From a virus: a stretch of DNA of 23,745 nucleotides. The notes below the pieces were generated by a model. That model saw nothing but the letters and a program-made list of their open reading frames with translations. It was not told the DNA's origin and made no database searches. The stretch's first letter is position 1. Every line of letters begins with the position of its first letter. The stretch is taken from positions 1 through 23,745 of the IMG/VR virus record IMGVR_UViG_3300031759_001047. The stretch is one strand, 5' to 3'. Below are positions 1,014 to 21,083 of the stretch, piece after piece. The translations under genes were made by a program, and so were the position numbers.

Positions 1014-2537
1014 ATGGTTTCCGCATTACAACAGATTGAAAGTATCCGTGATTTGAGGCGCTTGGAGCAACTCAAGACGGATTTTGGTCTGTTGTTTTAT
1101 GAGCCGCATAAAAAGCAGTGCGAGTTTCACGAGGCTGGGGCGATTAAGCGACGGTATGTGAGGACGGGGAATCGATTTGGAAAGTCTACGATGGGTGCCG
1201 CCGAGGATTGTGCATGGGCGTTGGGAGAACGTCCTTGGTACAAGAAAGGTGATCCTCGACGGCACGTTGGGATTCCGCAGCATAGCACCAAGGGATTGAT
1301 TATTGTCGCTGACTGGGATAAGGTGCACGAAATTTTCACCAATCCTGTAAAGGGTGTCGGTCAAGGGAAGTTGTTCAAGTTTTTGCCGAAGGATAAGATT
1401 GTTAAGTTTAATCGGCATAACTCTGGGATGATCGCGGAGATCACGGTGATGAATATATGGGGCGGTGAGAGTACGATCGTGATGGATACGGTGAAGTCGT
1501 ATCAGGCGAATCCGATGGGACAGGAGAGTTCGGACTGGGATTGGATTCATATTGATGAGCCGTGTCCGAAGGATATGTGGGTGGCGAATAGTCGTGGTTT
1601 GATTGACAGAAATGGAAGTGCGTGGTTTACGTGCACGCCGATCAATCATCCGTGGATCAATGATATGTTTGTACCGAGAGATCAGTTTCGGTTGAATAGT
1701 GGTGAGGTGATTAAGAAGGACTTGAATCACTGGATGTGTGTTGGGACGTCATTTGATAATCCGTATAATCCGGTCGAGGCGATCGATATGTTTATGGATA
1801 ATCTGACAGACGCGGAGAAAGGGTGTCGAATTCAAGGAATTCCACTCGCGCTTTCTGGGTTAGTTTATAAGGAGTTTCACCCTTCGGACTCGTTGTATAG
1901 AGGGACGCCAAGTGGATGGGAGGGGCCAATGACGCCTCCGGAGAACTATACGATTCGACTCGCAATAGATCCACATCCTCAGGTTCCTCATGCCGTGTTG
2001 TTTGCAGCGACGAGTCCGGAGGGGATTGTGTATTTCTTCGCTGAGATTTTTCGGAAGTTGAGTGCACAGCAGTTGTGTGAAGCGATTCATGAGATTACGG
2101 CGGGTCGTTATGTGCATATTAATCTTTGTGATCCTGCGGCTTATATTCCCTCGAATATAGATCAGAGCGTTATGGCCGACGTTTTAATAGAAGGAGGTGT
2201 ATTCGTTGAAAAGGCCAGTAAGGATTTGAGCCGCGGGATCATTACCACGCAGACTGCATTGAATGAGACGATCACGAGTCCGTTGGGTGTGAAGTCGCGT
2301 AAGATTTTGTTTGGCGAACATTTGCAAGAGACGAGGTGGGAGTTTGATCATTATACGTGGAATCCCGCGAGGCCGAATAAGCCGATTGATAAGCATGATC
2401 ATATGATGGAGAATTTGTATCGACTTGTGCTTGAGGGGTTAGATTATGTAAAACCTGATTCTGACGCGGAGTATATGTATATTTCGAATGGCGTTCCGCA
2501 ACATAGCAAATTTACTATACCACAAAATGGACGATAG
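1014..2537 (+). CDS. terL: Terminase large subunit
   Basis: This 507-residue protein is the DNA-packaging motor: ATP-driven translocation plus nuclease cleavage at the portal. The N-terminal ATPase has a Walker A variant TGNRFGKST (51-59), a Walker B strand ending IHIDEP (178-183, Asp181/Glu182) and a CTP coupling motif (207-209). The C-terminal RNase H-like nuclease begins RLAIDPHP (315-322, Asp319). Further acidic positions are at FFAEIF (Glu344) and LCDPAA (Asp373), with a late His/Asp cluster near 470. Length is normal for the family. ATG 1014 is preceded by AACAAGT, not a Shine-Dalgarno. The stop overlaps the portal start by 11 bases. No small terminase subunit is recognisable in the window. 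Confidence 0.93.
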   Translation: MVSALQQIESIRDLRRLEQLKTDFGLLFYEPHKKQCEFHEAGAIKRRYVRTGNRFGKSTMGAAEDCAWALGERPWYKKGDPRRHVGIPQHSTKGLIIVADWDKVHEIFTNPVKGVGQGKLFKFLPKDKIVKFNRHNSGMIAEITVMNIWGGESTIVMDTVKSYQANPMGQESSDWDWIHIDEPCPKDMWVANSRGLIDRNGSAWFTCTPINHPWINDMFVPRDQFRLNSGEVIKKDLNHWMCVGTSFDNPYNPVEAIDMFMDNLTDAEKGCRIQGIPLALSGLVYKEFHPSDSLYRGTPSGWEGPMTPPENYTIRLAIDPHPQVPHAVLFAATSPEGIVYFFAEIFRKLSAQQLCEAIHEITAGRYVHINLCDPAAYIPSNIDQSVMADVLIEGGVFVEKASKDLSRGIITTQTALNETITSPLGVKSRKILFGEHLQETRWEFDHYTWNPARPNKPIDKHDHMMENLYRLVLEGLDYVKPDSDAEYMYISNGVPQHSKFTIPQNGR

Positions 2538-4467
2538 AATTTTTAATGAATTGAATCAACAGACGATGACGGACTTTCACGTTCGTTTGTTGGAGCATTG
2601 TCGGACACGGATCAATCGTTCGCGTACGAAGATGAGTACGTATTTTGATGGTTGGGATTTGCGGCATAATACATATAAATCAACACGTGCTCAGGATAAA
2701 CAAGATCGAAAGGCGAAGGAGGAGGGACGGCCAGAAAAGCAGGTGTTACCCTTTACGTATGCGAAGGTTAATACGTTCCAGAGTTTTGTTATGTCGTTGT
2801 ACACGCAGCGACCCGGTGTGTTTGAACTCGAGCCGCAAGGTGGTGAAGATCAGGACTATCGGATTCTGGCAGAGAAGATGCTTAACTATGATATACGAAC
2901 CAATGGATTTACGCGCGTACTCCGACAGCATGTTAAAGATATTGCGAAGTTTGGTGTCGGTATTCTCAAGCATTCGTGGGAAGAGGATTATGTGTATGTT
3001 CCGAAGGAGACGAGTGAGACAAAGACGATCTTCGGGATTCCGTGGAAGGCTGGGACGTCTAAGACGGTGGATAAGGTTTGCAAGCGGAAGGGGAACAAGG
3101 TAACTGCGACGAGTCCATATAACTTCTTGCCTGATCCGCGATATACGTTGGTTGATTTTCAGAAGGGTGAGTTTTGCGCCGACGAGTGCGATTACTCGCG
3201 TGGAGAGTTGCTGCGTATGGAGAATGAAAAGAAGGTCGCTGGCGTGGAATTTATCACTCCAATGCCGACGAATCTTTCATATTCGTTTGCGCCTTATTTG
3301 AAACGTTCGCAGCTCAATTGGGACAATCCGGAAAAGACTCCGAATATTGTGCGGTTGACGGAAGTGCAGATCAAACTCACGCCGTGTGATTTTTTGTTGG
3401 TTGACGGAACTCCGATGGGAGAGGAAAAGTTTCCAGTCTTGTTTTTGGTTTGGATGACGAATAGTTCTCGTATCGTTCGCTGCGAACCTATGGGTTACTT
3501 GCACGGTGAGTTTACATACGAGGTCGCGCAATATGACGAAGACTCGCATGAGTTTGTTGGTCAATCGCTTCCGGAGATTCTTGACCGCCTGCAGGAAACT
3601 GCTGATTGGTTTATGAATGCGCGGGTTGAAAGCGTGACTCGTACGATTGATAATCAACTTGTTGTCGATCCTCTCGGTGTGGAAATGGCCACGATCACGA
3701 ATCGCTCGCGGGTGATTTTGTTAAAGAAAGGTGCGGCTCGCACGGGCGTTGATCGTTATATTAAACAGCTTGAGGTTCAAGACGTTACCGCACGGCACAT
3801 GGAAGATATTTCCGGAATTCATGGTTTTATGGACACAGTGTCTGGTGTGAATGAAAATGCACAAGGCCAGTATAATGCGGGACGGCGTTCGGCGACTGAA
3901 GCACGTGTTGTCACGCAAGGTGCAGCAGCCCGTCTTAAAGGCACCGCACTTGCGATCTGGGACGCTTCGGTGGCAGCAAGCGGATATAAGATGCTTTTGA
4001 ATCTTCGTCAAGGTTTAACTCCCGAAGATGTGATTCAAATTGCCGGGCAAGAATACGCGCAAAAGCCTGAGTTGATCGCGGCTTTTCTCGCAGATTCCGC
4101 GACCCTTGCTCGGCAAACTGATTTCTTTGTTTATGATGGCACACTTGCAAGTGAGAAAGCCTACCTCGCACAAACTCTCAAAGAACTGTTCCAAGAAGTT
4201 CTTGCACTCGGTCCGCAAGGTCTTGTCAATCTCGACATCTCTCCGAAACTCATCCTCGAAAACATTTACGAACTCCTCGGTGTCGGTGCAATCTCACAAT
4301 TTGCACTTTCCAAAGATCCTCAGACTTTGCAAAACGCCGTAGCACAGATCGTCCAACAACAAGTTCAACAAGCAATACAACAATATGTCCAACAACTCTC
4401 AAGTGGTCAGGGTGCAGGCGGATCTGGACAAGGACCAAATGCGCCGGCTCCAGCAGGAACTGTATGA
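2527..4467 (+). CDS. Portal (head-tail connector) protein
   Basis: This 646-residue protein would form the dodecameric ring at the packaging vertex. The call rests on position directly after terminase, length, and a portal-like N-terminal half: a helical start, then a region around FTYAKVNTFQSFVMSLYTQRP typical of podovirus portals, and mixed stem/wing segments. The C-terminus is rich in Gln with runs of QQ and ends in a Gly/Pro/Ala tail, as in long portal barrels. I chose ATG 2527, inside the end of the terminase gene (ATGGACGATAG). An in-frame ATG at 2488 would add 13 residues and lengthen the overlap to 50 bases. Codon style shifts from G/T-rich to C/A-rich in the last 450 bases, following the regional skew rather than any visible domain change. 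Confidence 0.85.
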   Translation: MDDRIFNELNQQTMTDFHVRLLEHCRTRINRSRTKMSTYFDGWDLRHNTYKSTRAQDKQDRKAKEEGRPEKQVLPFTYAKVNTFQSFVMSLYTQRPGVFELEPQGGEDQDYRILAEKMLNYDIRTNGFTRVLRQHVKDIAKFGVGILKHSWEEDYVYVPKETSETKTIFGIPWKAGTSKTVDKVCKRKGNKVTATSPYNFLPDPRYTLVDFQKGEFCADECDYSRGELLRMENEKKVAGVEFITPMPTNLSYSFAPYLKRSQLNWDNPEKTPNIVRLTEVQIKLTPCDFLLVDGTPMGEEKFPVLFLVWMTNSSRIVRCEPMGYLHGEFTYEVAQYDEDSHEFVGQSLPEILDRLQETADWFMNARVESVTRTIDNQLVVDPLGVEMATITNRSRVILLKKGAARTGVDRYIKQLEVQDVTARHMEDISGIHGFMDTVSGVNENAQGQYNAGRRSATEARVVTQGAAARLKGTALAIWDASVAASGYKMLLNLRQGLTPEDVIQIAGQEYAQKPELIAAFLADSATLARQTDFFVYDGTLASEKAYLAQTLKELFQEVLALGPQGLVNLDISPKLILENIYELLGVGAISQFALSKDPQTLQNAVAQIVQQQVQQAIQQYVQQLSSGQGAGGSGQGPNAPAPAGTV

Positions 4468-5518: not shown

Positions 5519-6889
5519 ATGGACCATGCAATATTGGGTTTAGTCAGTGGTAAGACTTTTACAGATCAAGCCTTCCACAATCGTAATAATCGCCGACGAA
5601 TCTTTCATGATTTCCCGGTCGGCCAGTTCCCGTTGACGGGATTGCTGAGTTTGATGGACAGCGAAGAAACGGATTCGTTCGACTTTGGCTGGTGGGAGAA
5701 GCGCTTTGAAACGCCGCAGACGACGATTGCGTCTGGTGCTGCGCCGTTCCAAACTGCTGTTGGTGGTGCGTTGGCTGATGCGACGTTTGTTGCGGGTACG
5801 GAGTTTATCGTGCTTGTGGCGGATTCGAGCATGTTCCAAGTGCGTCAGCAGGTGTGGTTCCCGAGTTTGTCGATCTATGGAGCGGCGACGACTTATGCTG
5901 AGCTGAAGGGTGTTGTGACTGCGGTTGCGACTGGTTCGATTAAGTTCCAATGCTCGGAGAGTACAGTGCGTTTGGTGAATACGGACACGGCGATGCCGAA
6001 TGGTGCGACGGGTTGCGATGTGATTTGTGCAGGTAATGCGGTTGGTGAAGGTGCGAGTACGACTTCGGGTCGGACGCTTCTTCCAGTGAATCCGCATAAC
6101 TTTACGCAGATCTTTCGTAACGGGATGAGTTTCACACGTACGGCAATGAAGGTTCCGACCAACTTCGACAAGACTGGTATCTATCGCGAGTCTGCGGAAG
6201 AAGCCTGTCGGAATCATATGGTTGACATAGAGATGGCGTTCTTGTTCGGGTCGAAGCGCACAGACAATGTCGTGGAGAACGGCGAGACTGTGCCACGTCG
6301 TCAGACTGGTGGTGTCACATGGTATCTGAAGCAGTGGGAAGCCGCGGATTCGATCTATCGTGGCGGTACTGGTACCGCGGCGGTTACGGACAATGCGAAC
6401 GACAACAAGCGGATTATCTTGTCAACGGCAGGTAATATCGTTTGGTCGACGATGAATACGTACCTTGAACGTGCGTTCCGCGTGACGAATGACAAGGCGT
6501 TCGAGAAACTGTTCCTTTGCGGGAGTGGTATTCTTGGTGCGTTCAATGCGTATCTGGAAGGGAAAGCGCAACTGCAGAAACAGTTCAGTGTGCAGACCGT
6601 GTATGGTATGAATGTGGTTTCTTGGGAAACTCCATTCGGGACTATTCACTTCAAGACGCATCCGTTGTTCTCGCGGCAGGCGGCACTCCGTTACAACGGG
6701 TTGCTGTTGGACGTGCAGAATCTGAAACATCGCCCGCTGAACGATAGCGATACCACGTTGCTCACCAACCGTCAGGCGAATGACTACGACGGCCGCAAGG
6801 ACGAGTGGATGACGGAAGCTGGTCTGGAACTTCGGTTCCCAGAGTCGTGTATGTATTTCCAAAACCTGAAGACGTTCTCGGCGACGTAA
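5519..6889 (+). CDS. Major capsid protein (HK97 fold, SU10/DUF5309-like)
   Basis: The 456-residue length, position directly after the scaffold and sequence pattern indicate the coat protein. The N-terminal third has an arm-like segment, then a Gly/Ala/Thr-rich domain. A central region (about 195-240, NFTQIFRNGMSFTRTAMKVP) resembles the spine-helix region of SU10-type coats. The C-terminal part has A-domain features ending in a strand near DEWMTEAGLELRFP. These resemble DUF5309/SU10-like coats, but the assignment is by recognition and was not searched. No protease gene or obvious N-terminal propeptide is seen nearby, so scaffold removal may not involve a phage protease encoded here. The A-rich leader fits high expression. 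Confidence 0.82.
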   Translation: MDHAILGLVSGKTFTDQAFHNRNNRRRIFHDFPVGQFPLTGLLSLMDSEETDSFDFGWWEKRFETPQTTIASGAAPFQTAVGGALADATFVAGTEFIVLVADSSMFQVRQQVWFPSLSIYGAATTYAELKGVVTAVATGSIKFQCSESTVRLVNTDTAMPNGATGCDVICAGNAVGEGASTTSGRTLLPVNPHNFTQIFRNGMSFTRTAMKVPTNFDKTGIYRESAEEACRNHMVDIEMAFLFGSKRTDNVVENGETVPRRQTGGVTWYLKQWEAADSIYRGGTGTAAVTDNANDNKRIILSTAGNIVWSTMNTYLERAFRVTNDKAFEKLFLCGSGILGAFNAYLEGKAQLQKQFSVQTVYGMNVVSWETPFGTIHFKTHPLFSRQAALRYNGLLLDVQNLKHRPLNDSDTTLLTNRQANDYDGRKDEWMTEAGLELRFPESCMYFQNLKTFSAT

Positions 6890-10863: not shown

Positions 10864-11940
10864 ATGGCTGATATCAATGCAATTATGAAGTTGTTTGCTG
10901 GAATCCAACAGGGACAGCAGGCTTTGGTCAATTCTGTGCAGAAACCGCGTGGGATTATGCGGCATAATGATGATATGACCAATATGGGGACGCCGGGGAT
11001 GAGTGGGACTCCGGGATTGGATCAGTGGTATCGGAACAATCCGGGGTATCAGAACACTCCGGTGGTTGCGGATACTGGGCAGGCACAGAGGGATCATCAG
11101 CTGTTTTTGGATCAGATCGCACGGAGTACAGAGGAGATCAATGCGTATGATGAACATGCGAAGTTGGCAGGGTTGCCGACGTATAAGGAGAAGATGGCAC
11201 AAGATCAACAGTCAAATGTTAAGTCTATTGCGGATGAGTGGAATCAGACACAGAGTCAGTGGCAGGGTGCACAAAATCCGGGTGGTGCTGGAGGGTTGAA
11301 TTTTAATCTTGTTAATGGCCCTATGGATGTGTTTGCACAGAATAGTGAGAATGCATTGAATTGGGCGAAGATCCAAGGACAAGAGATGGTGGGAAGAGGT
11401 TTGAAGGCTGATACGAGCGGTTTTGGGAATTATGCGCCGATTGCGTCTGTGACGAGTCCGAGTAGGACTCCGACTACACCGAGTGCGTTGCCGGGAAGTT
11501 TGGCAAGTGTTGGACAAGATCCTTTTGCGGATATTAAGATTGGAGGTATTCCACGGCAACCAAATGCTTTAACCAATGCATTTAATGCGCCAGATAAAAC
11601 AAATATGGCGCAAGGCATGGAAAGTTTGTTGTTTGGGCGTGCTGCAATGCCACAAGTTACACAACAAGGGATTGCGGCTGCAATGCCACAAGTTACACAA
11701 CAAGGGATTGCGGCTGGGATGACACGAGAACCGACAGTTTCTCCTGCATTGTTAATGGCGGCTGGGATGAATCCATTAGCTGCACAATTTTATGGTGCGT
11801 TACCGCCTGAGATGCCACTGGGCAACTTTATGGATCAAATCATGTCGAAGTTTAACGCAAGGAATCGCGAACGTGCAAATAGCGCTGCGGACGATGCTGC
11901 AATTGGCAGGATGATTAAGATACTGCAAACCAGTAAGTAA
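10864..11940 (+). CDS. Putative internal virion protein (358 aa) with a 12-residue tandem repeat
   Basis: This product is rich in Gln, Asn, Met, Gly and Pro, with low-complexity linkers and predicted helical ends. I do not recognise a family. A perfect 12-residue repeat (AAMPQVTQQGIA, twice) lies at about residues 260-283. Its place between the Gln-rich protein and the giant virion protein makes an ejection or core protein the likeliest role. The start at 10864 follows a short A-rich spacer (AACTAAATACAAAA) with no Shine-Dalgarno. The gene ends four bases before the next start. Confidence 0.6.
   Translation: MADINAIMKLFAGIQQGQQALVNSVQKPRGIMRHNDDMTNMGTPGMSGTPGLDQWYRNNPGYQNTPVVADTGQAQRDHQLFLDQIARSTEEINAYDEHAKLAGLPTYKEKMAQDQQSNVKSIADEWNQTQSQWQGAQNPGGAGGLNFNLVNGPMDVFAQNSENALNWAKIQGQEMVGRGLKADTSGFGNYAPIASVTSPSRTPTTPSALPGSLASVGQDPFADIKIGGIPRQPNALTNAFNAPDKTNMAQGMESLLFGRAAMPQVTQQGIAAAMPQVTQQGIAAGMTREPTVSPALLMAAGMNPLAAQFYGALPPEMPLGNFMDQIMSKFNARNRERANSAADDAAIGRMIKILQTSK
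11641..11716 (+). repeat. Perfect 36-bp tandem duplication (two units plus 4 bases)
   Basis: Units 11641-11676 and 11677-11712 are identical, and 11713-11716 begin a third. The repeat is in frame and adds 12 residues. Perfect identity at the DNA level suggests a recent duplication, such as slippage or an assembly-sensitive site. Confidence 0.9.
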
Positions 11941-11944
11941 CTCT

Positions 11945-14900
11945 ATGGACACCTATCAAGATTTTCTAAAACAGAATCCTGTGGATGAGTTTAACTCGCC
12001 GCGGCAGATTCAACAAGACTTTGTGGACAATATCCGCAAGGCTGATCCACGTTTTAGTGACTTGACAGAAGGGCAGACTGGTCAGGTGTTGGCGCAGTTG
12101 ACCGGAGAGCAGGGGTTTAATAGATTTTCGGCTGGTGCGTTGAATCGTGGGTTTGATTGGTTAGGTGATAAGTTTACGAATACGCTTAACGAATTGCCTG
12201 TCGGTGGTGGTCTGACTGCGAGTCAATATGCTGGTGAAGGAGCACAAGGATTTGCGCAAATTTTTGGTGCTGGAGAGGATACACAACAAGCGTTTAAGAG
12301 TGGTGGTGAGCAATTGCCAACGATTATCGGGATGCTTGGGTTGGGCGGTGTTGGAAGTGTGATTGGTGGTATTGCTGGTGCGATTGGTGGTATTGGAAGT
12401 GTGATTGGTGGTATTGCTAGTGCAGGTATGACTGGTTTGATGGGTGCGACTATGTACGGACAAGGCGTAGGTAGCGCATATGAACAAGGCGCTACTGGAC
12501 TTGCGCCGACTGCAGTTGGTGCAACGAGTTTGGCGACACTTGCGATTCCGATGGTGTTCAGTCGTGCGATTGCTGATGTTGCGGGGACTGCAGCGTTGAA
12601 ACTTACTGCGAGTGGTGCGTTGAAGGATTTGACTGCAGAAGCGGTTAAGGATGGAGTGAAGTTCAGTGGATCAGAGGCGGTGAATTTGATCACTGGGAAT
12701 CCTGCAGTGTCGACTTTGCGCCGAAGTGCGTTGAAGACGGTGCAGGAAAGCATTGCAATGAGCACGGCGAGTGCATTGAGTATTTCTAGTGCGGTTGCTG
12801 GGCAGTTGATCATTAATCCGAAGAAGTTTGTTGAAGATCAGTTGACGAGTAAGCAGTTCTGGATTCCGACGTTGATTGGTGAAACTTTCAACGGTGTGGG
12901 TGGTGTGATGATGGGGAGGATGCGGGAACCAGTTAAGAGTTATAAGACACTGACTGAAGAACAGGCAGCACTGAAAGCAAAGTTGCATGGTAGTGAGCAA
13001 GCGAGTGCCGAGGAAGGTGCAAAGTCACTTGTGGGGATTTTGCCGGATAAGACTGCGGGGACGGAACCTTCATTGACTGTTCCGTTAGATGAGACGATGT
13101 ATCCGGAAAGTATTTACAGTTCGAAGATTAAGAAGCAACTTGGAATTCCTGCAGGTCCTGAAAGCGATCAGGCATTACTTTCGCATTATAGTGCGATTCG
13201 TCAAGCAAATGCGGAAGCGATTGTTGCGGAGACAAATAAGGCGTCTACTGATACACCTGAAAGTCCTGCGGTTAAAGATCGTGTGATTAACACTCCAGAC
13301 GAAGCGTACGCTGCGATTGCTGATGTAATGGCAGCGCATGATCCGTCGAGTGATCAGTTGAACATGCTTGGAATGGCAGTGCAACATCTGCAAGAAGCGA
13401 TGGAAAGTACGCATCCAGAAGTGTCGACAGATGAAGCATTCATGCATGCAGTAGAGGAGATTCACGCGCGTGCTTATGATCCTAACGTGCAGAATTATGA
13501 GCATATTGTCACGACGGATGATGGAAATCATATTGCGTTTCATAATCCCGGGACGAAGGAAGTTGGGACGTTTGTTCAAGTGATGCGGACAGGAGAGGAT
13601 GGCAAAGTTCATCCTGTGGGTAAGCAATTCATTGAAAACGTTCCCGGCACGGCGACGATTTTGCGCCTGCATGACGTGTTACAGCTTGCGAAACTTGACG
13701 CGCCAGCGTTGAAACCTGCACTAGACAAACACTTTGGAGTTGATGTGACGCCGAAGGAACTTGAAGTTTTTCATCGTGTCTTTCAGCGGACTGCACAAGC
13801 GGAAGCCGAGATGCCGTATGGCGTGAGTTTTCATGAAGATTATCATGCTCAAGATCCGAGGCGAGCTGCTGGGATTGCTGAGATGTTGCATCGGACGGGG
13901 ATGCAGAAGGCGCTAGTTGCGCTTAAGCAGAAGTTACGTTTTACTGCGAGTTCTGCATGCCTTGATCCAAAGGCGTTAGATAACGCGACGTTTGATTATT
14001 TTGGCGCGAAGAATATTGCGGCGCATTCGTTGGTTGAGAATACGAATGGTGAACTCGTGCACGTGATTTCACGTAACAATACGTATGGTCCTGATGTGGA
14101 TATTCATGAATTAGGACACGTGTTGCATGTGCTTATCGACTCAGGTGGTTATGGGAAAGAGATGAAGGCTGAGGTCGATAAGTGGCTTGGTGACATTGTT
14201 AACCCAGATAGCGAGTGGAATAAGGGGAAGGAACGTGGTAAGCAACGAGCGGAAGATGTTAAGCACGCTGCAGAAACCGGCGCGACGATTGCGTCAAAGG
14301 TTCAGGCAGGAACTAAACGCGCACAAGGTTTGCCAGATACAGAAGAGATTCGTCAGCATTACTTGTCATACTATGAAACATTCGCGCAAACCTTTCATGG
14401 CTATATGATGTCTGCTGGGAATAAGTTCTCAGACTTTATGGCAAAACACTTTCCGACTTTGCATGGATTCTTTTCGGAGTATGCAAAAGCTTTTAAGACT
14501 GGTGGACCGCTTAATCGTTACTCGCCGGGTTATAGTGTTGGCAAGTCGATTTTGAAAACCTACCTCGATGCACATTATGATGCAACTGAAGCACCTGCGA
14601 AACGTCTGCATGCACTCATGGATGCGACACCGGGAATGTCTTCTCGAGTTGCAGAAGCGTTAGTTCACGAGTGGTTTCAAGCGAAAGGTGTTGGTATTCG
14701 TGATGCACTCGAGACGACGGTCAAGCAGTTGAAAGAGACTGGCGAAGGTGTGAGTGATTCTTCTGTGATCGATTTGCTTTCGAGCATCGGACGCGTGAAC
14801 GGAGAAACGAATATGTTCTCTCCAATGGAAGGTTACGATGGACAGTTAAATTCCAAGGCGTTTATTCTTGCACCTTGGATTAGCCATCTTGTCGGTGAAA

Positions 14901-17900
14901 CACATCTCGGTTGGGATAAGATGCTGAGTGCTGCGAAGGAACTTGCGGCAAAAACAGGTAAACCTTTCAAGAGTGAAAAGTGGTTTAACTCGCACACACT
15001 TGCAACAGAACTTGGATTCAAACCCGGCACACCACGTCACGCAGAAGCGCAATCCTATCTCAATGGACGGTGCTTCATTATGAAGAACATTGAACGTCTT
15101 CAACGCGTGGTTGATGTAATTTTGAATCCTGCGGAAACTGAGCGATATACGCAGGCCGACGTGTTAAAGCAGATTTATAAACTCGATGGAGTTTTACGTG
15201 ACTGGTATCTGGGTCGCTTGGATTACCAGAAAGGTAAGCCAATGTACGAGCCGACTTGGGACAAACTTAGTTCGTCTGTCGAAGCTGGTCGTCAACATAC
15301 AATCGAACTTCCAGAACGCGAGGCTGCGTTTGTTGAAAAATCACATAAGTCTTGGTTCCCAGACCTCACCGATGCGTTGATGAAACGCGTGAAGAACACT
15401 GCGAAACCACCAAAATCTCACCTTGACATTGATGGTAATTTTGACTTCGAGACAAAGCAACGCGAGTCAGGTACGAAACGTCCTGAGTTGAAGTCTTTCT
15501 CATCTGAGCAAGAAGCTCGAGATTATGTTGACTCGATTCAAAACTCGAGTAAGTACGCGATGGTCGAACTTTCGACTGAGCATTATACCAAGCGTACAGT
15601 TGCAAAAACTCGCGAAGAAAAACTTGTTGCACAAGGTAAATACAAACTCACCGATGCGTGGCGTATCGTTGCAAAAGACACAACGAATCGCCTTCGTCTC
15701 GCCTCCGAAGATTCCACTTGGCGCGCTTCAAAACAAGCGTTCGAGGCTGCTGCGTTTGAACAAGCGCCCGAGCATGTGCAAGAATCGCAGTCCGAACTCG
15801 AGTCCATCGCCGCTCCACGTCCACAGCCTACGAAAGAAAAGCGGGTCGTCGCTCAGTTGTCACCTGAAAGTGCAAAACAATTTTGGGCCGAACTTGAAAA
15901 AACTGGTGCTCCTGCACTTCACAAACTTCGTGACATAGTTCCGAATCACGTGGAGAAAGCTCTGCAAGACATCCTCGCAGGCACAGATCAACCACATACG
16001 AACGTCAATGAATTTGCGACGTTGAAAAAGCATTTTCTTGGAATGCTCGAGTGGCGTAAGGCGAATCCGGGCATCTTCAACGATCTCTTACATGAACACG
16101 GTGTTGATCTATTGCCTACGCAAAATGGTCTAATCACGATGGTCAAGGCATATGTTAATTCGTTGCACACCTTCACGCCTGATCTTAACGCAAAACAAAT
16201 CCAATCTGAACACCTTCGCAATCTCAGTAAGATGATCGCGTTTGGTGAAGACGTCGCCAACGCAAGTAACAAACCAAGCGCAGCATACGATCCTGACACT
16301 GTAACAAACTTCTACAAGTCTCTCACAAACTATGTGAAAGATTTGCAGTCTCAATATCTCAACGAAAGTGCTGCTGACACTGGTCGCGGTATGATTCCGC
16401 AAGTCACACCTTCCGAGCAAGGTCGTCAAGCTGGCACGACAGCATTCGCAACACCACTTTCTAATCCAACAGTCCAAGCAAACGTCGCAGCTGTTCTCAA
16501 CACACAAGAAGGCAACCTCGGACGTCCACATGACGTCGCACATGAACGTAGTGCGATCGGAAAGATCTTCGGAGCCGTCCTAGGTAAACCACTCAGTGTC
16601 GCACAAAAAATCCACTCCGCAATCGGCCAAGGCCCGCTACAACGAGCCGTGCAAGATCCAAACTTTTATTGGGCTTCTAAAGCATTCTACGACGAAACTG
16701 TTAATGTCTCCGGTAACACAACAGGTGCACTCAAGCATTTGCACTGCGCAGGCAAACTAGTCTCGCAACTCGAACTCATACCGCCCGATGAACGTGCAAA
16801 TCTAAAACCCGAGGAAATTGCACACCTTGAAGCGCTTCCAAAGATTTTCAAACTCGACGAAGGTGACAGCATGGATCCAAACCGTACTGTCCGTACAATG
16901 TTAGCGAACCCTCGTCTGCGTGACATCTTCAATCGCATTGGACTTCTGGAGAACCAAGGTTCAGACTTCTATGAAAACATAATCAACAAACCTCTTGATC
17001 CGAACGACGAAATTTCGGTTAGTGCTTATGCGTACAAGAAAGAACTCTCAAACCCAAAAGAGGCAGCACTCATGGAAGAATGCCTTAAGCGTTTTTACGC
17101 CTCTCACAAGTACTCGGTCCAAGTCCAAACTGTTCAAAGCATGCGAAACTTCATTGCTTCGCATGCCACCTCACTAATCTCTCGTCCCGAGTTCGGCAAC
17201 TCCGCCGAAAAAGCGATGGATTTTGCTACACGCTTCAACGCTGCCAGCACTCCAGATCGTCTACAATTACTCGTTAAGGAGCTTAACAAGACTCCGAGAG
17301 AGATGACGAATGCGCAACAGGCAAAGATGACTGAGGAGGAGTTTCACCAGTCGCAGAGTACGACGATGACGTTGGATGATGCGGAGAGATTGCTTAAGCC
17401 GTATATGGAAGCGGAGCAAGGGGTGTTGAAGCAGAATCAGATGCTGTTACACAATTCGTTTTATACGAGTGAGGTGCGGTATGGTGCGTGGCATGTGAGG
17501 GTGGTGTTTAAGGAGGATGGGAGAATGCCAGCGAGTAAGACGGAACGGATGGGGTATTATGGGTTTAATTCGTTGGAGGAGGCACAGAAGTTTGCTGCGG
17601 AACAGCGGGTACTTGGAAATACTTCAGGCACGCCGTGGGACTTTGGACGGGCGAAGCGTAATTATCGTGAGATTAATGGGACGTATGAAGATGCGTTGAA
17701 TGATGTTACGAAGACGACGCGAGTGATGTTGGAGTTGTTTTTAGAAGGGAAAGGGTTGGATGAAGAGACGTTGAATACTGTATCGAATGCTATTGGTGAC
17801 TTGCCTGATAAGGTGACAATGCAGAATGAGGCAGTGAAGATTAATTCGTTGACTGCTAGAAAGCGTTCGTTTACGAAAGGGCGGGAAGAATTGGATCGGT

Positions 17901-19951
17901 TTGAACAGCATTTGGAAAGCGTTCGGCGTCGTCTTGCGGCGAGTGGACGTAAGGAGACTGATATTAAGTTCAAACTTTACGCGCGGGATAAAGGGACGCT
18001 TGCGAATAATGATTTGTATGAAAAGTTGGATGAGTTCAAATCTGGCATGCGTTTGAAGGATAGTGAGTATCAGAAGCAGATTGGGATGCTTGGGTATAAT
18101 GCGTGTATGTTGGGGAACTTGTCTTCGGGGATTATGGAAATGCAGCAGGGTCCGATTATTACTGCGGCGAGTTTGATGGCTCATGGTGGGAGTTTGAAGG
18201 ATGCGTTTTTGGTTCCGACGCAAGTGGTGAAGTATGCGTATCAGTCTGCGATGAAGCGGTTAGTGAGAGGGGATCAGACTAGCGTTTGGGATAATCCTGA
18301 AGAGCGTGCATTCATTCGTGATGCGGTGAATAAGAATAGGCTGGCACAGAGATTGCATCATGATATTGATCAAACGAGCACGGATCGTGTGATGGAGCAG
18401 TATCGAAATCTTGATGGGTTTGAGGATCAGACGACGAAGGATAAGATTAAATCTGTTGGACAGCATGTGTTCAATGGGTTGAATAATATGTATGGAGCGA
18501 TGAATCGTTTCAACATGGAGGTGTCGTTGATCTCGCATTATAGACTGTTGAGGAAATTGCAGTATGGGAACGTGCCGACGATGACTGCGGAGCAGATGCA
18601 GACGAACGGGCATCCGCAGTTTACTAAACGCCAGTTTGCCGAACTTTCCAACAAGGTAATGATGGCCAGTGACATGGCGAATGGTACGTTGCAGAGGTTG
18701 GGAAGACCTGAGTTTTTCAATACGAAATCAGAGATGCTGCGGAATGCAGCGAGTACGTATTGGAGTTTGCAGAGTTTTGTGAATGCGCAGGTCGCGAATC
18801 AGTTACTCTATATGAGTAAGGCGTTGAACGCGAAGGGGATTTACTCGAGGTCGGAGAGTATCGCAGCGAGAAAAGCGATGGCGACGTTGCTTGGAATGCA
18901 ATTTCTCGCGATGGGAACGGCAGGATTTACTTTGTGGCCTAGTGCGAACAAGGCAATTAAACTCGCGACTGGGTTTGATCCGGAGGAAGAAATGCGTGAT
19001 GCGTTTTTGTCGAATAAGAATTGGAGTGACAGTGACCGTCAATTCATGGCAGATTTTGCTGCGAATGGATTAGCGACTGCGGCAGGTGTTCCGATTGATT
19101 ATGGAACTCGTTTGAGCGTACAGGGTTTAGGTCCAATGAGTCCGTATGCTGGGTTTGATGCGAAACAACTTGGTGGGCCGGTCATCGGTTTGGTCACGCA
19201 GGCGATGAGTGATTTGAAGAAGGTGCAGGAAGGAACGTTGGGTATTGGCGAAGCTGTTACACTCAATATGCTGCCTGTTGGACTTCGTCGTGGTTTGCGC
19301 ATGGAGATGTTCGATCATGGTGATATCTATGATGGAAATAAGAAGTTCATGTTCACACCAACCGCAGTTGAACGTGTTGGTATGTGGACTGGATTTAACA
19401 CTGTCCGTGCGCGTAAGGAAATGGAAGCGCGGATGAAGAGTACGGAGGCGATTGACGCTGGTGCGAGGTTGAAGATGACACGTGCAAATGCGGTGATTGA
19501 TGCGCAAGCGAGTGGGAATTTGCCCGAGGCCATGCGGATCATGCGGCAGACGGCGACTGACTTTCAAGAGAAGGTTCCAGCCTTTGCAAAGTATGTCGCA
19601 GAGTTGAAGGTGTCGAAAGATATGGGACAACTCGTACGCGAGGGAAGTGGTCCAGAAGCTGATCGAGTCGCACGTTTGTATCAGACTTTGAATCCACCGC
19701 AGGAGATGTTACGGAAAGCAAAAACTGATAACTACATGCAACAACTTGGTGTACCAGTGGTTCCAAACTTCCAAGCCTACCGACATGCGGCAGCGTTTGA
19801 CTCGATAATGCAAAACAACCCCGGAATTACTTCCGGAGCTGCGTCTAAGATGTTGTCCGATCCAATGCGGCGCGGAACGATATATGGAGCACTTGATCCT
19901 AACTCTGCAACTGAAGCATTTCAGTCGAATTTCCCATCAGTAGCTTGGTGA
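11945..19951 (+). CDS. Giant virion protein with zincin (HELGH) metallopeptidase motif (2668 aa)
   Basis: One third of the window is this single reading frame. After a polar start, residues about 125-170 form a glycine-zipper, membrane-active-looking segment with repeated GSVIGGIA units. Residues 721-725 are HELGH in a typical zincin setting (hydrophobic before, HVLID after). Glu811, in YYETFAQTFHGY, is a candidate third zinc ligand. The region after about 1150 is long, charged and helical. Residues about 2050-2360 are helix-rich with an MNRFNMEV segment, reminiscent of the conserved C-terminal regions of large phage polyvalent proteins. No T7/N4-type RNA polymerase motifs and no lytic transglycosylase motif are recognised. 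The likeliest role is an ejection protein delivered with the DNA and acting on host proteins or the cell envelope. It contains TTAA copy 4 and ends 53 bases into a convergent - strand gene. Confidence 0.85.
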   Translation: MDTYQDFLKQNPVDEFNSPRQIQQDFVDNIRKADPRFSDLTEGQTGQVLAQLTGEQGFNRFSAGALNRGFDWLGDKFTNTLNELPVGGGLTASQYAGEGAQGFAQIFGAGEDTQQAFKSGGEQLPTIIGMLGLGGVGSVIGGIAGAIGGIGSVIGGIASAGMTGLMGATMYGQGVGSAYEQGATGLAPTAVGATSLATLAIPMVFSRAIADVAGTAALKLTASGALKDLTAEAVKDGVKFSGSEAVNLITGNPAVSTLRRSALKTVQESIAMSTASALSISSAVAGQLIINPKKFVEDQLTSKQFWIPTLIGETFNGVGGVMMGRMREPVKSYKTLTEEQAALKAKLHGSEQASAEEGAKSLVGILPDKTAGTEPSLTVPLDETMYPESIYSSKIKKQLGIPAGPESDQALLSHYSAIRQANAEAIVAETNKASTDTPESPAVKDRVINTPDEAYAAIADVMAAHDPSSDQLNMLGMAVQHLQEAMESTHPEVSTDEAFMHAVEEIHARAYDPNVQNYEHIVTTDDGNHIAFHNPGTKEVGTFVQVMRTGEDGKVHPVGKQFIENVPGTATILRLHDVLQLAKLDAPALKPALDKHFGVDVTPKELEVFHRVFQRTAQAEAEMPYGVSFHEDYHAQDPRRAAGIAEMLHRTGMQKALVALKQKLRFTASSACLDPKALDNATFDYFGAKNIAAHSLVENTNGELVHVISRNNTYGPDVDIHELGHVLHVLIDSGGYGKEMKAEVDKWLGDIVNPDSEWNKGKERGKQRAEDVKHAAETGATIASKVQAGTKRAQGLPDTEEIRQHYLSYYETFAQTFHGYMMSAGNKFSDFMAKHFPTLHGFFSEYAKAFKTGGPLNRYSPGYSVGKSILKTYLDAHYDATEAPAKRLHALMDATPGMSSRVAEALVHEWFQAKGVGIRDALETTVKQLKETGEGVSDSSVIDLLSSIGRVNGETNMFSPMEGYDGQLNSKAFILAPWISHLVGETHLGWDKMLSAAKELAAKTGKPFKSEKWFNSHTLATELGFKPGTPRHAEAQSYLNGRCFIMKNIERLQRVVDVILNPAETERYTQADVLKQIYKLDGVLRDWYLGRLDYQKGKPMYEPTWDKLSSSVEAGRQHTIELPEREAAFVEKSHKSWFPDLTDALMKRVKNTAKPPKSHLDIDGNFDFETKQRESGTKRPELKSFSSEQEARDYVDSIQNSSKYAMVELSTEHYTKRTVAKTREEKLVAQGKYKLTDAWRIVAKDTTNRLRLASEDSTWRASKQAFEAAAFEQAPEHVQESQSELESIAAPRPQPTKEKRVVAQLSPESAKQFWAELEKTGAPALHKLRDIVPNHVEKALQDILAGTDQPHTNVNEFATLKKHFLGMLEWRKANPGIFNDLLHEHGVDLLPTQNGLITMVKAYVNSLHTFTPDLNAKQIQSEHLRNLSKMIAFGEDVANASNKPSAAYDPDTVTNFYKSLTNYVKDLQSQYLNESAADTGRGMIPQVTPSEQGRQAGTTAFATPLSNPTVQANVAAVLNTQEGNLGRPHDVAHERSAIGKIFGAVLGKPLSVAQKIHSAIGQGPLQRAVQDPNFYWASKAFYDETVNVSGNTTGALKHLHCAGKLVSQLELIPPDERANLKPEEIAHLEALPKIFKLDEGDSMDPNRTVRTMLANPRLRDIFNRIGLLENQGSDFYENIINKPLDPNDEISVSAYAYKKELSNPKEAALMEECLKRFYASHKYSVQVQTVQSMRNFIASHATSLISRPEFGNSAEKAMDFATRFNAASTPDRLQLLVKELNKTPREMTNAQQAKMTEEEFHQSQSTTMTLDDAERLLKPYMEAEQGVLKQNQMLLHNSFYTSEVRYGAWHVRVVFKEDGRMPASKTERMGYYGFNSLEEAQKFAAEQRVLGNTSGTPWDFGRAKRNYREINGTYEDALNDVTKTTRVMLELFLEGKGLDEETLNTVSNAIGDLPDKVTMQNEAVKINSLTARKRSFTKGREELDRFEQHLESVRRRLAASGRKETDIKFKLYARDKGTLANNDLYEKLDEFKSGMRLKDSEYQKQIGMLGYNACMLGNLSSGIMEMQQGPIITAASLMAHGGSLKDAFLVPTQVVKYAYQSAMKRLVRGDQTSVWDNPEERAFIRDAVNKNRLAQRLHHDIDQTSTDRVMEQYRNLDGFEDQTTKDKIKSVGQHVFNGLNNMYGAMNRFNMEVSLISHYRLLRKLQYGNVPTMTAEQMQTNGHPQFTKRQFAELSNKVMMASDMANGTLQRLGRPEFFNTKSEMLRNAASTYWSLQSFVNAQVANQLLYMSKALNAKGIYSRSESIAARKAMATLLGMQFLAMGTAGFTLWPSANKAIKLATGFDPEEEMRDAFLSNKNWSDSDRQFMADFAANGLATAAGVPIDYGTRLSVQGLGPMSPYAGFDAKQLGGPVIGLVTQAMSDLKKVQEGTLGIGEAVTLNMLPVGLRRGLRMEMFDHGDIYDGNKKFMFTPTAVERVGMWTGFNTVRARKEMEARMKSTEAIDAGARLKMTRANAVIDAQASGNLPEAMRIMRQTATDFQEKVPAFAKYVAELKVSKDMGQLVREGSGPEADRVARLYQTLNPPQEMLRKAKTDNYMQQLGVPVVPNFQAYRHAAAFDSIMQNNPGITSGAASKMLSDPMRRGTIYGALDPNSATEAFQSNFPSVAW
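12351..12418 (+). repeat. 26-bp direct repeat, 42 bases apart, encoding a glycine zipper
   Basis: Identical 26-bp units at 12351-12376 and 12393-12418 encode repeated GSVIGGIA segments of the giant protein. The spacer also repeats part of the unit. They mark an internal duplication of the hydrophobic segment. Confidence 0.8.
17273..17288 (+). repeat. TTAA-N5-TTAA skew-switch element, copy 4 (inside giant gene)
   Basis: The sequence is GTTAAGGAGCTTAACA, codons 1777-1782 of the giant gene. G/C is 32/57 over 17101-17280 and 67/24 over 17341-17520 by hand count. Codon style changes sharply here within one continuous reading frame. Confidence 0.8.
19899..19951. other. Convergent overlap of two coding regions (53 bases)
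   Basis: The last 53 bases of the + strand giant gene are also the last 53 of the - strand ATPase gene, read on opposite strands. There is no room for a terminator between the converging transcription units, and no hairpin plus T-run is visible. Confidence 0.9.
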
Positions 19952-21083
19952 CGACATCTGTACGAACTAGATAATCAAGAGCTTTTTCAGTCTGCTCAAT
20001 ATCTCCGGACTCCCAGAGCGCCGAAATGATTTGCTTTTTCGAAAGCATTTTGTTCGGCGCTTCTTCGAGTCTAGAGTAAATGAGATATGCAAGTTCGGCG
20101 AGTGGGTTTTTACCTGCACCAGCTAGGACTTTGTTGAGATGAAGTTCGACCGCATCGAGCATGACAAGCGCATCTCGGAAAAGTGCTTCGGTGAGAAGGC
20201 CAGTCATATCGCTCGCGAGGTCAAGAAGCATTGCGCATTTGATGAGTTGTGTGTCTTTTGTGCGCAACCAGTTCTTGAACACATTCGTATGCGGCATCGC
20301 CATCTGTTTATACTTCTCGTTATACCAAGGGACGAAGAAGTTTTCACCGTCGCGTGAGAGTTTGTACTCGCAAGCGAAGGATTTGACTTTACGCAAGTGC
20401 GCAAGACATCGAACGTGAGCGTCGACTTGCTCTTGCGTTTCCTGTGGAAGTGCGACCGGGTTGCCGTGTCGCTTTCCCCAGACAAAGATACCACGGCGTG
20501 AGAAACCACCTGTGATGAGTTTTTCTTTGAGTAGCTGACCGGTTTGCTCGGGAGTCATACAAGCGAGCATTGTCACGTAAGGGGAGAAGATGATGTCGGT
20601 GCCTTTGTTTTTCGTGGCGACTTCATAAGCCTCTTGGTCATAAATGTCCGTAAAGAACGTAATGAGGCCAGAGGGATTACCACCCGCCGAGAGCATAGTA
20701 ACAATTTCATTTGCGAAAAATGAAAACTGCGAGACTTCGACTGGCATGATGCCGTGAATGAACTTGAGGTGACACTTTGATGCTTCATTGGTTTTTGACA
20801 TTAAGACAGAGATTTGCTGTAACGTGATGGATGGTGGCGCGATTGGAGTCTCAAGTTTCTGACACATCCGCCGCGCTTTGTTCATCGCAGTCGACTTTCC
20901 GTCGCCGGGTTCACCGACAAGCACAACATAAAGATTTGGATAGATTTTACAAACGTGTTGATCGAAAAAGACTTTACGCGACACGACCGCGGAGAGTACA
21001 CTCAACGCACTCCACGTATGAAAGAGTGGCGAGGCTTCTCCACCGGAAGTGTACAGCATGTAATCGTCGATGAAGTTATTCAT
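19899..21083 (-). CDS. DUF3987-like P-loop ATPase (putative replication helicase/ATPase)
   Basis: The 394-residue product has a clear Walker A, VGEPGDGKST (56-65). A hydrophobic strand ending in FFANEI (121-126, Glu125) is a candidate Walker B. GGFSRRGIFVWG (191-202) is a candidate arginine-finger/sensor segment. This order, with an N-terminal F/W-rich segment before the P-loop, is what I know from DUF3987 proteins, often found with phage replication genes. A helicase or primase-associated ATPase role is inferred; no primase catalytic motifs are seen. The C-terminal 100 residues look like a winged-helix domain (KKQIISALWESGDIEQTEKAL). The start overlaps the ligase gene's end by 8 bases, and the stop lies inside the end of the giant + strand gene. 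Confidence 0.75.
   Translation of the reverse strand: MNNFIDDYMLYTSGGEASPLFHTWSALSVLSAVVSRKVFFDQHVCKIYPNLYVVLVGEPGDGKSTAMNKARRMCQKLETPIAPPSITLQQISVLMSKTNEASKCHLKFIHGIMPVEVSQFSFFANEIVTMLSAGGNPSGLITFFTDIYDQEAYEVATKNKGTDIIFSPYVTMLACMTPEQTGQLLKEKLITGGFSRRGIFVWGKRHGNPVALPQETQEQVDAHVRCLAHLRKVKSFACEYKLSRDGENFFVPWYNEKYKQMAMPHTNVFKNWLRTKDTQLIKCAMLLDLASDMTGLLTEALFRDALVMLDAVELHLNKVLAGAGKNPLAELAYLIYSRLEEAPNKMLSKKQIISALWESGDIEQTEKALDYLVRTDVVTKLLMGNSTEMLQLQS

Follow-up and report, generated by a model that had tools for sequence, protein, structure and literature searches.

The last gene of the late module in the window, a term used here for the whole analysed stretch (an IMG/VR record of 23,745 bases), encodes a member of a family of giant phage proteins that is widespread and for the most part uncharacterised. 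The family provides many divergent natural versions of the protein, in which a zinc site is kept while nearly all else changes, and some versions are found without the site. Judged from its sequence, the window giant is probably an ejected protein of the phage polyvalent-protein kind. It is ordinary in kind, and the central claim of an earlier sequence-only reading of this DNA, that of a giant, probably ejected protein with a HELGH zincin motif, is well supported. To that reading, sequence comparison adds a conserved C-terminal domain, a similar placement of the zincin and an extra segment specific to the window's subgroup.

The late module lies on the plus strand and is podovirus-like, with the terminase large subunit, the portal, the major capsid protein and several unassigned genes in this order and the giant gene at the end, while the genes for primase, DNA ligase and DNA polymerase lie on the minus strand and converge with it (Table 1). 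The open reading frame was found intact over all 2668 codons, as had been claimed. Its reading as a virion protein agrees with its place as the last late gene, the position at which N4 encodes its ejected polymerase; virion proteomics for the giants of these phages was not located in the searchable literature. A second record, of 31,603 bases, carries a giant 100% identical to that of the window. At their 3' ends, the giant gene and the convergent gene for primase have 53 bp in common (19899-19951), and a smaller overlap of this type was observed in the relative G005 (L036 19159-19179).

Table 1. Features of the window relevant to the giant gene and its surroundings
Feature	Position	Strand	Basis or remark
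Terminase large subunit	1014..2537	+	phrog_2, 3.8e-8; served to find relatives
Portal / head-tail adaptor	2488..4467	+	phrog_332, 9.4e-24
Major capsid protein	5519..6889	+	phrog_1328, 3.9e-31
Giant gene for a probable ejected virion protein of 2668 aa	11945..19951	+	intact ORF, ATG start, no internal stop
N-terminal hydrophobic segment, residues 123-168	12311..12448	+	hydropathy
21-bp tandem repeat, 3.2 copies, encoding the "glycine zipper" heptads	12356..12423	+	Tandem Repeats Finder
Zincin-like domain, about residues 620-870, boundaries approximate	13802..14554	+	conserved alignment block; profile match to family zincin
HELGH, residues 721-725: predicted zinc ligands H721 and H725, predicted catalytic E722	14105..14119	+	
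E811, predicted third zinc ligand, ExxA motif	14375..14377	+	invariant in 21/21 family members
Extra segment, about residues 870-1590, between zincin and C-terminal domain	14552..16714	+	window subgroup only
Conserved C-terminal domain, residues 1665-2637	16937..19855	+	iterated profile search with reversed decoys
DNA primase	19899..21083	-	phrog_14296, 1.3e-34; begins convergent replication module, overlaps 3' end of giant gene

Searches of the giant protein against Pfam, PHROGs, NCBIfam, PADLOC and PDB sequences, as well as tblastn against phages, returned nothing significant. Among genome contigs no relative turned up with the patterns used, and the major capsid protein or the primase alone as query found near-identical contigs only; alignments of distant capsid proteins or primases were too divergent to serve as queries, and it was the terminase that succeeded. 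Through terminase relatives at 44-77% identity to that of the window, two giants (2560 and 2573 aa) were reached that are 31% identical to the window giant over the whole length, and also one giant of 2283 aa; a search with a terminase alignment yielded 80 loci from which 18 further giants were read. Two of the giants, G022 and G023, appear to be the same one, so that the family set comprises 21, namely the window giant and 20 relatives from divergent phage contigs. The family giants (L113-L130) range from about 1820 to 3570 aa and differ in length mainly before the zincin, in a part of which almost nothing is recognised by Pfam and which looks like unexplored cargo.

The predicted residues His721, Glu722, His725 and Glu811 were all located where the sequence-only reading had placed them, and they are invariant in 21 of the 21 family members at 11-34% identity to the window, being the only invariant columns of the 21-row zincin alignment; A814 is conserved at 90% or more. 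HExxH itself occurs in 20 of the 21 giants (19 of the 20 relatives and the window), the sole exception being G021 (L119), which carries HELIGH at residue 684, an HExxxH form known among polyvalent-protein zincins (PMC5512222). Because the segments were cut around the HExxH motif, the invariance of H721, E722 and H725 is partly by construction, whereas E811 and A814 played no part in the selection and thus constitute independent evidence. The motif alone is weak evidence since about one in ten shuffles of the window protein contains at least one HExxH, and its conservation is decisive. For the narrower pattern HE[hydrophobic][small]H the expectation is about 0.008 occurrences, and the mean chance of an HExxH, by shuffling, is 0.04 per family giant, so that the product over 20 giants is about 4e-31, a figure that ignores shared ancestry and is a guide only.

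Furthermore, the zincin of the window subgroup was matched to that of the other giants in a profile-profile comparison at E 2.7e-6 and a probability of 88.5%, with HELGH and E811 in register, and a further giant in L143 has the zinc motif at the usual place. From this conservation the zinc site of the window giant is very probably functional, and peptidase activity of its zincin seems reasonably likely. A second HExxH of the window protein, HEDYH at residue 630, was rejected as a second active site, since the two nearest relatives do not keep it. Two HExxH motifs each were also observed in the giants of Roseobacter phage CRP-810 (L008; residues 840 and 1457), G025 (L115; 833 and 2320) and G019 (L116; 1132 and 1341), possibly reflecting two zincin domains.

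Since the structure models are of low confidence, the case for the zinc site rests on sequence conservation. AlphaFold2 modelling of the window zincin from three sequences reached a pLDDT of 45 and was uninterpretable, while a model of the zincin and C-terminal domain of a relative, built from ten rows, reached a mean pLDDT of 58.5. The two helices 81-102 and 160-177 of this model carry HExxH and the Glu; short strands of low confidence come before them, and the C-terminal region is long and helical. The arrangement of helices and strands fits a zincin at low confidence. Foldseek with this low-confidence model found no match below E 0.001 in the PDB, where N4 gp50 ranked 27th at E 1.2. VIA-align returned mostly short helical matches with Z up to 8.3, and among the matches listed there was no zincin and no N4 chain, which does not imply a difference in fold.

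The sequence-only reading had also stated that most of the protein is without an assigned domain. This is true of the databases, the C-terminal domain included, which has no match in Pfam, PHROGs or NCBIfam, but the last 970 residues or so were found to form a conserved family domain. A profile built from four members over window residues 1665-2637 and iterated retrieved all 21 giants in round one, followed in later rounds by VS-ABTNL-3, Mel-JY34, Kuura and ctLwi270, and then by 119X, EBPR podovirus 3 and Tiera; the domain, of about 930-970 residues, is thus common to seven named phages and 21 of 21 giants. Reversed decoys stayed out in every round. The search set, however, was small and its members had been picked for being related or for their position, and caution is due with the E-values of later rounds, especially those of 119X, EBPR podovirus 3 and Tiera. 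The distance from HExxH to this domain is 270-466 residues in most giants and 865-1017 residues in the window, G005, G002 and G010; of the set in which a giant could be read, these four are the closest by terminase. The longer form is accounted for by the extra segment, of about 600 residues net, whose flanks align to the short forms.

In named phages the giant likewise ends the late module and is convergent with the replication genes, as was seen in VS-ABTNL-3, Mel-JY34, Desulfofustis phage, Tiera, EBPR podovirus 3, 119X and N4; in CRP-810 more late genes follow the giant. The giants of Vibrio phage VS-ABTNL-3 and Microcystis phage Mel-JY34 have the same position and C-terminal domain as that of the window, with HExxH 1127-1162 residues before the C-terminus, but no similarity to the window giant was detectable beyond that domain and the stretch around the motif. 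The giants of Jamesmcgillvirus 119X (Fredfastierviridae), Polaromonas phage Tiera and EBPR podovirus 3 also occupy this position and have part of the C-terminal domain in common with the window by iterated profile, but are shorter, at about 1845 aa, and contain neither HExxH nor HExxxH. Because the C-terminal domain occurs there without HExxH, the zincin appears dispensable in several named lineages. The VS-ABTNL-3 giant (L004 17815-23187) is annotated as a "putative DNA methylase". In Caudoviricetes sp. vir526 (L017; listed host Methanomicrobiales, thus archaeal), the primase is related to that of the window at E 4e-11 and the giant is again last, but no convincing match of this giant to the C-terminal domain was found.

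The layout and zincin of the giants resemble, at the level of sequence and gene order, the injected RNA polymerase of N4, minus the polymerase. In gp50, the virion RNA polymerase of N4 and other Schitoviridae, the N-terminal domain inserts in the membrane, domain C1 contains HExxH, and C2 is large and helical (PMC12633501). The gp50 gene, like that of the window giant, is the last of the late module and convergent with replication genes, and both proteins have an N-terminal hydrophobic segment. HExxH lies 1063-1313 residues from the C-terminus in 10 of 10 schitovirus homologues and mostly 1189-1423 residues from it in the window family; unlike these, the window zincin is 1948 residues from the end because of the extra segment. 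A profile of the other giants' zincin matched that of ten schitovirus zincins at E 4.6e-5 and a probability of 68.5%, against E 0.63 for a reversed control, whereas the window-subgroup zincin alone gave no match (E 0.19); the C-terminal domain gave no clear match to N4 C2 by sequence profiles (E 0.1). An RNA polymerase as cargo was rejected, since neither the N4 polymerase domain nor PF00940 found a match in the family, within the limited sensitivity of a search in which PF00940 detects N4 gp50 itself weakly.

Zincin is the commonest domain of polyvalent proteins, for which self-processing or host targeting has been proposed (Iyer et al. 2017, PMC5512222). Like these proteins the window giant is very large and encoded with late virion genes, and its family has in common with them an HExxH zincin with a Glu on the following helix, the HExxxH variant and, in homologues, polyvalent-protein domains, with LPD37 directly before the zincin in G014 (Pfam, 4e-14) and LPD23 in G019 (Pfam, 3e-12). 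The best Foldseek match of the relative's model in a viral structure library was a protein named as a large-polyvalent-protein domain protein (E 5e-15). Unlike polyvalent proteins, the window giant matches no polyvalent-protein model: no LPD domain was found in it, and a search with MPTase-PolyVal (PF18818), at E up to 10, hit neither the window nor the relatives' records nor N4; LPD38 was without a match in the records, as was its control. Of the several unrelated enzymatic domains that polyvalent proteins combine in one chain, the zincin is the one recognisable in the window giant, whose residues 870-1590 and much of whose N-terminal part carry no assignment. The kinship suggested earlier stands through the relatives and finds no domain match in the window protein itself.

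The N-terminal segment proposed by the sequence-only reading is real and recurs in the nearest relatives. Residues 123-168 are hydrophobic and Gly-rich, with a peak mean hydropathy of 1.84 and five GxxxG in residues 121-180, and comparable hydrophobic segments without the repeat occur at 139-170 in G005, G002 and G010. The glycine zipper that had been paired with the zincin exists as well, but not as a designed element: the zipper-like stretch (about residues 138-160) derives from the 21-bp tandem repeat, a lineage-specific minisatellite. As a conserved feature it was discarded, the repeat lying in an insertion absent from G002 and G005. The repeat is thus best read from the sequence as having expanded inside the hydrophobic segment, the zipper being incidental.

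Taken together, the window giant is likely to belong to the phage polyvalent kind and to serve as an internal virion (ejection) protein. Such a protein would be packed in the head and threaded via the tail into the cell alongside the DNA, whereupon its N-terminal hydrophobic part might insert in the inner membrane and the remainder refold in the cytoplasm, as has been reported of N4 gp50. The C-terminal domain is probably a packaging or delivery module, because it is present even where the zincin is missing, and the variable N-terminal part would be the cargo; that some natural giants lack HExxH suggests that the zincin is not required for delivery. Since the zincin lies between cargo and C-terminal module in most relatives, its likeliest role would be that of a metallopeptidase acting after entry, either on its own chain at the junction of cargo and C-terminal domain or on a host protein, and the order of variable N-terminal part, zincin and conserved C-terminal domain favours chain processing or a cargo role. 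Cleavage of its own chain can be put forward tentatively, and cleavage of a host protein is somewhat unlikely. The N4 virion polymerase, with a similar zincin, is packaged without processing (PMC5512222), and no degradation of it was seen in a structural study (PMC12633501), so that spontaneous self-cleavage is not favoured.

Alternatively, the zincin could be purely an effector that cuts host proteins, for example those of defence or the envelope, soon after entry and has no role in self-cleavage. This has been put forward for polyvalent-protein zincins generally (PMC5512222), and the accessory distribution of the zincin across the named relatives fits a host-facing role; its placement in most relatives, 270-466 residues before the C-terminal module, however, fits a chain-tied role at least equally, and the effector reading is rather improbable. 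A structural or relic zinc site, which aids folding, packing or refolding after ejection and cleaves no peptide, is unlikely: the unprocessed, undegraded N4 polymerase with its comparable domain, the several relatives that manage without HExxH and the remark of the N4 authors that HExxH is found in non-peptidases too are in accord with it, but Glu722 is kept with the ligands in 21 of 21 giants although identity in the domain has fallen to 11-34%, and a catalytic Glu would be needless for a purely structural zinc. Least convincing is a structural internal-core or tunnel protein like T7 gp16, channel or core only with the zincin a minor addition, a distinctly unlikely reading to which the late-module position, the N-terminal hydrophobic segment and the long helical C-terminal region of the relative's model would conform, but against which stand the lack of any transglycosylase or other core-protein family in the database searches, the greatly varying length of the homologues before the zincin and the polyvalent-protein domains in two of them.

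Returning to the ejected giant with a post-entry metallopeptidase, one speculative and on balance doubtful extension is a single plan for the giants injected by a large family of small tailed phages, in which variable cargo, metallopeptidase and conserved C-terminal delivery module are combined, the peptidase releases or activates the cargo once inside the cell, and the N4 polymerase is a specialised version. That giant phage proteins can contain zincin domains has been known since 2017; through the present family, with a conserved C-terminal domain that is missing from Pfam, small phages become suitable for tests of self-cleavage, of host targeting and of the delivery module, and the family may bear on the HExxH domain of the N4 polymerase.

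The gene directly upstream of the giant (10864-11940) encodes 358 aa without a significant family match, and a perfect 36-bp tandem repeat of 2.1 copies was observed within it at 11641-11716.
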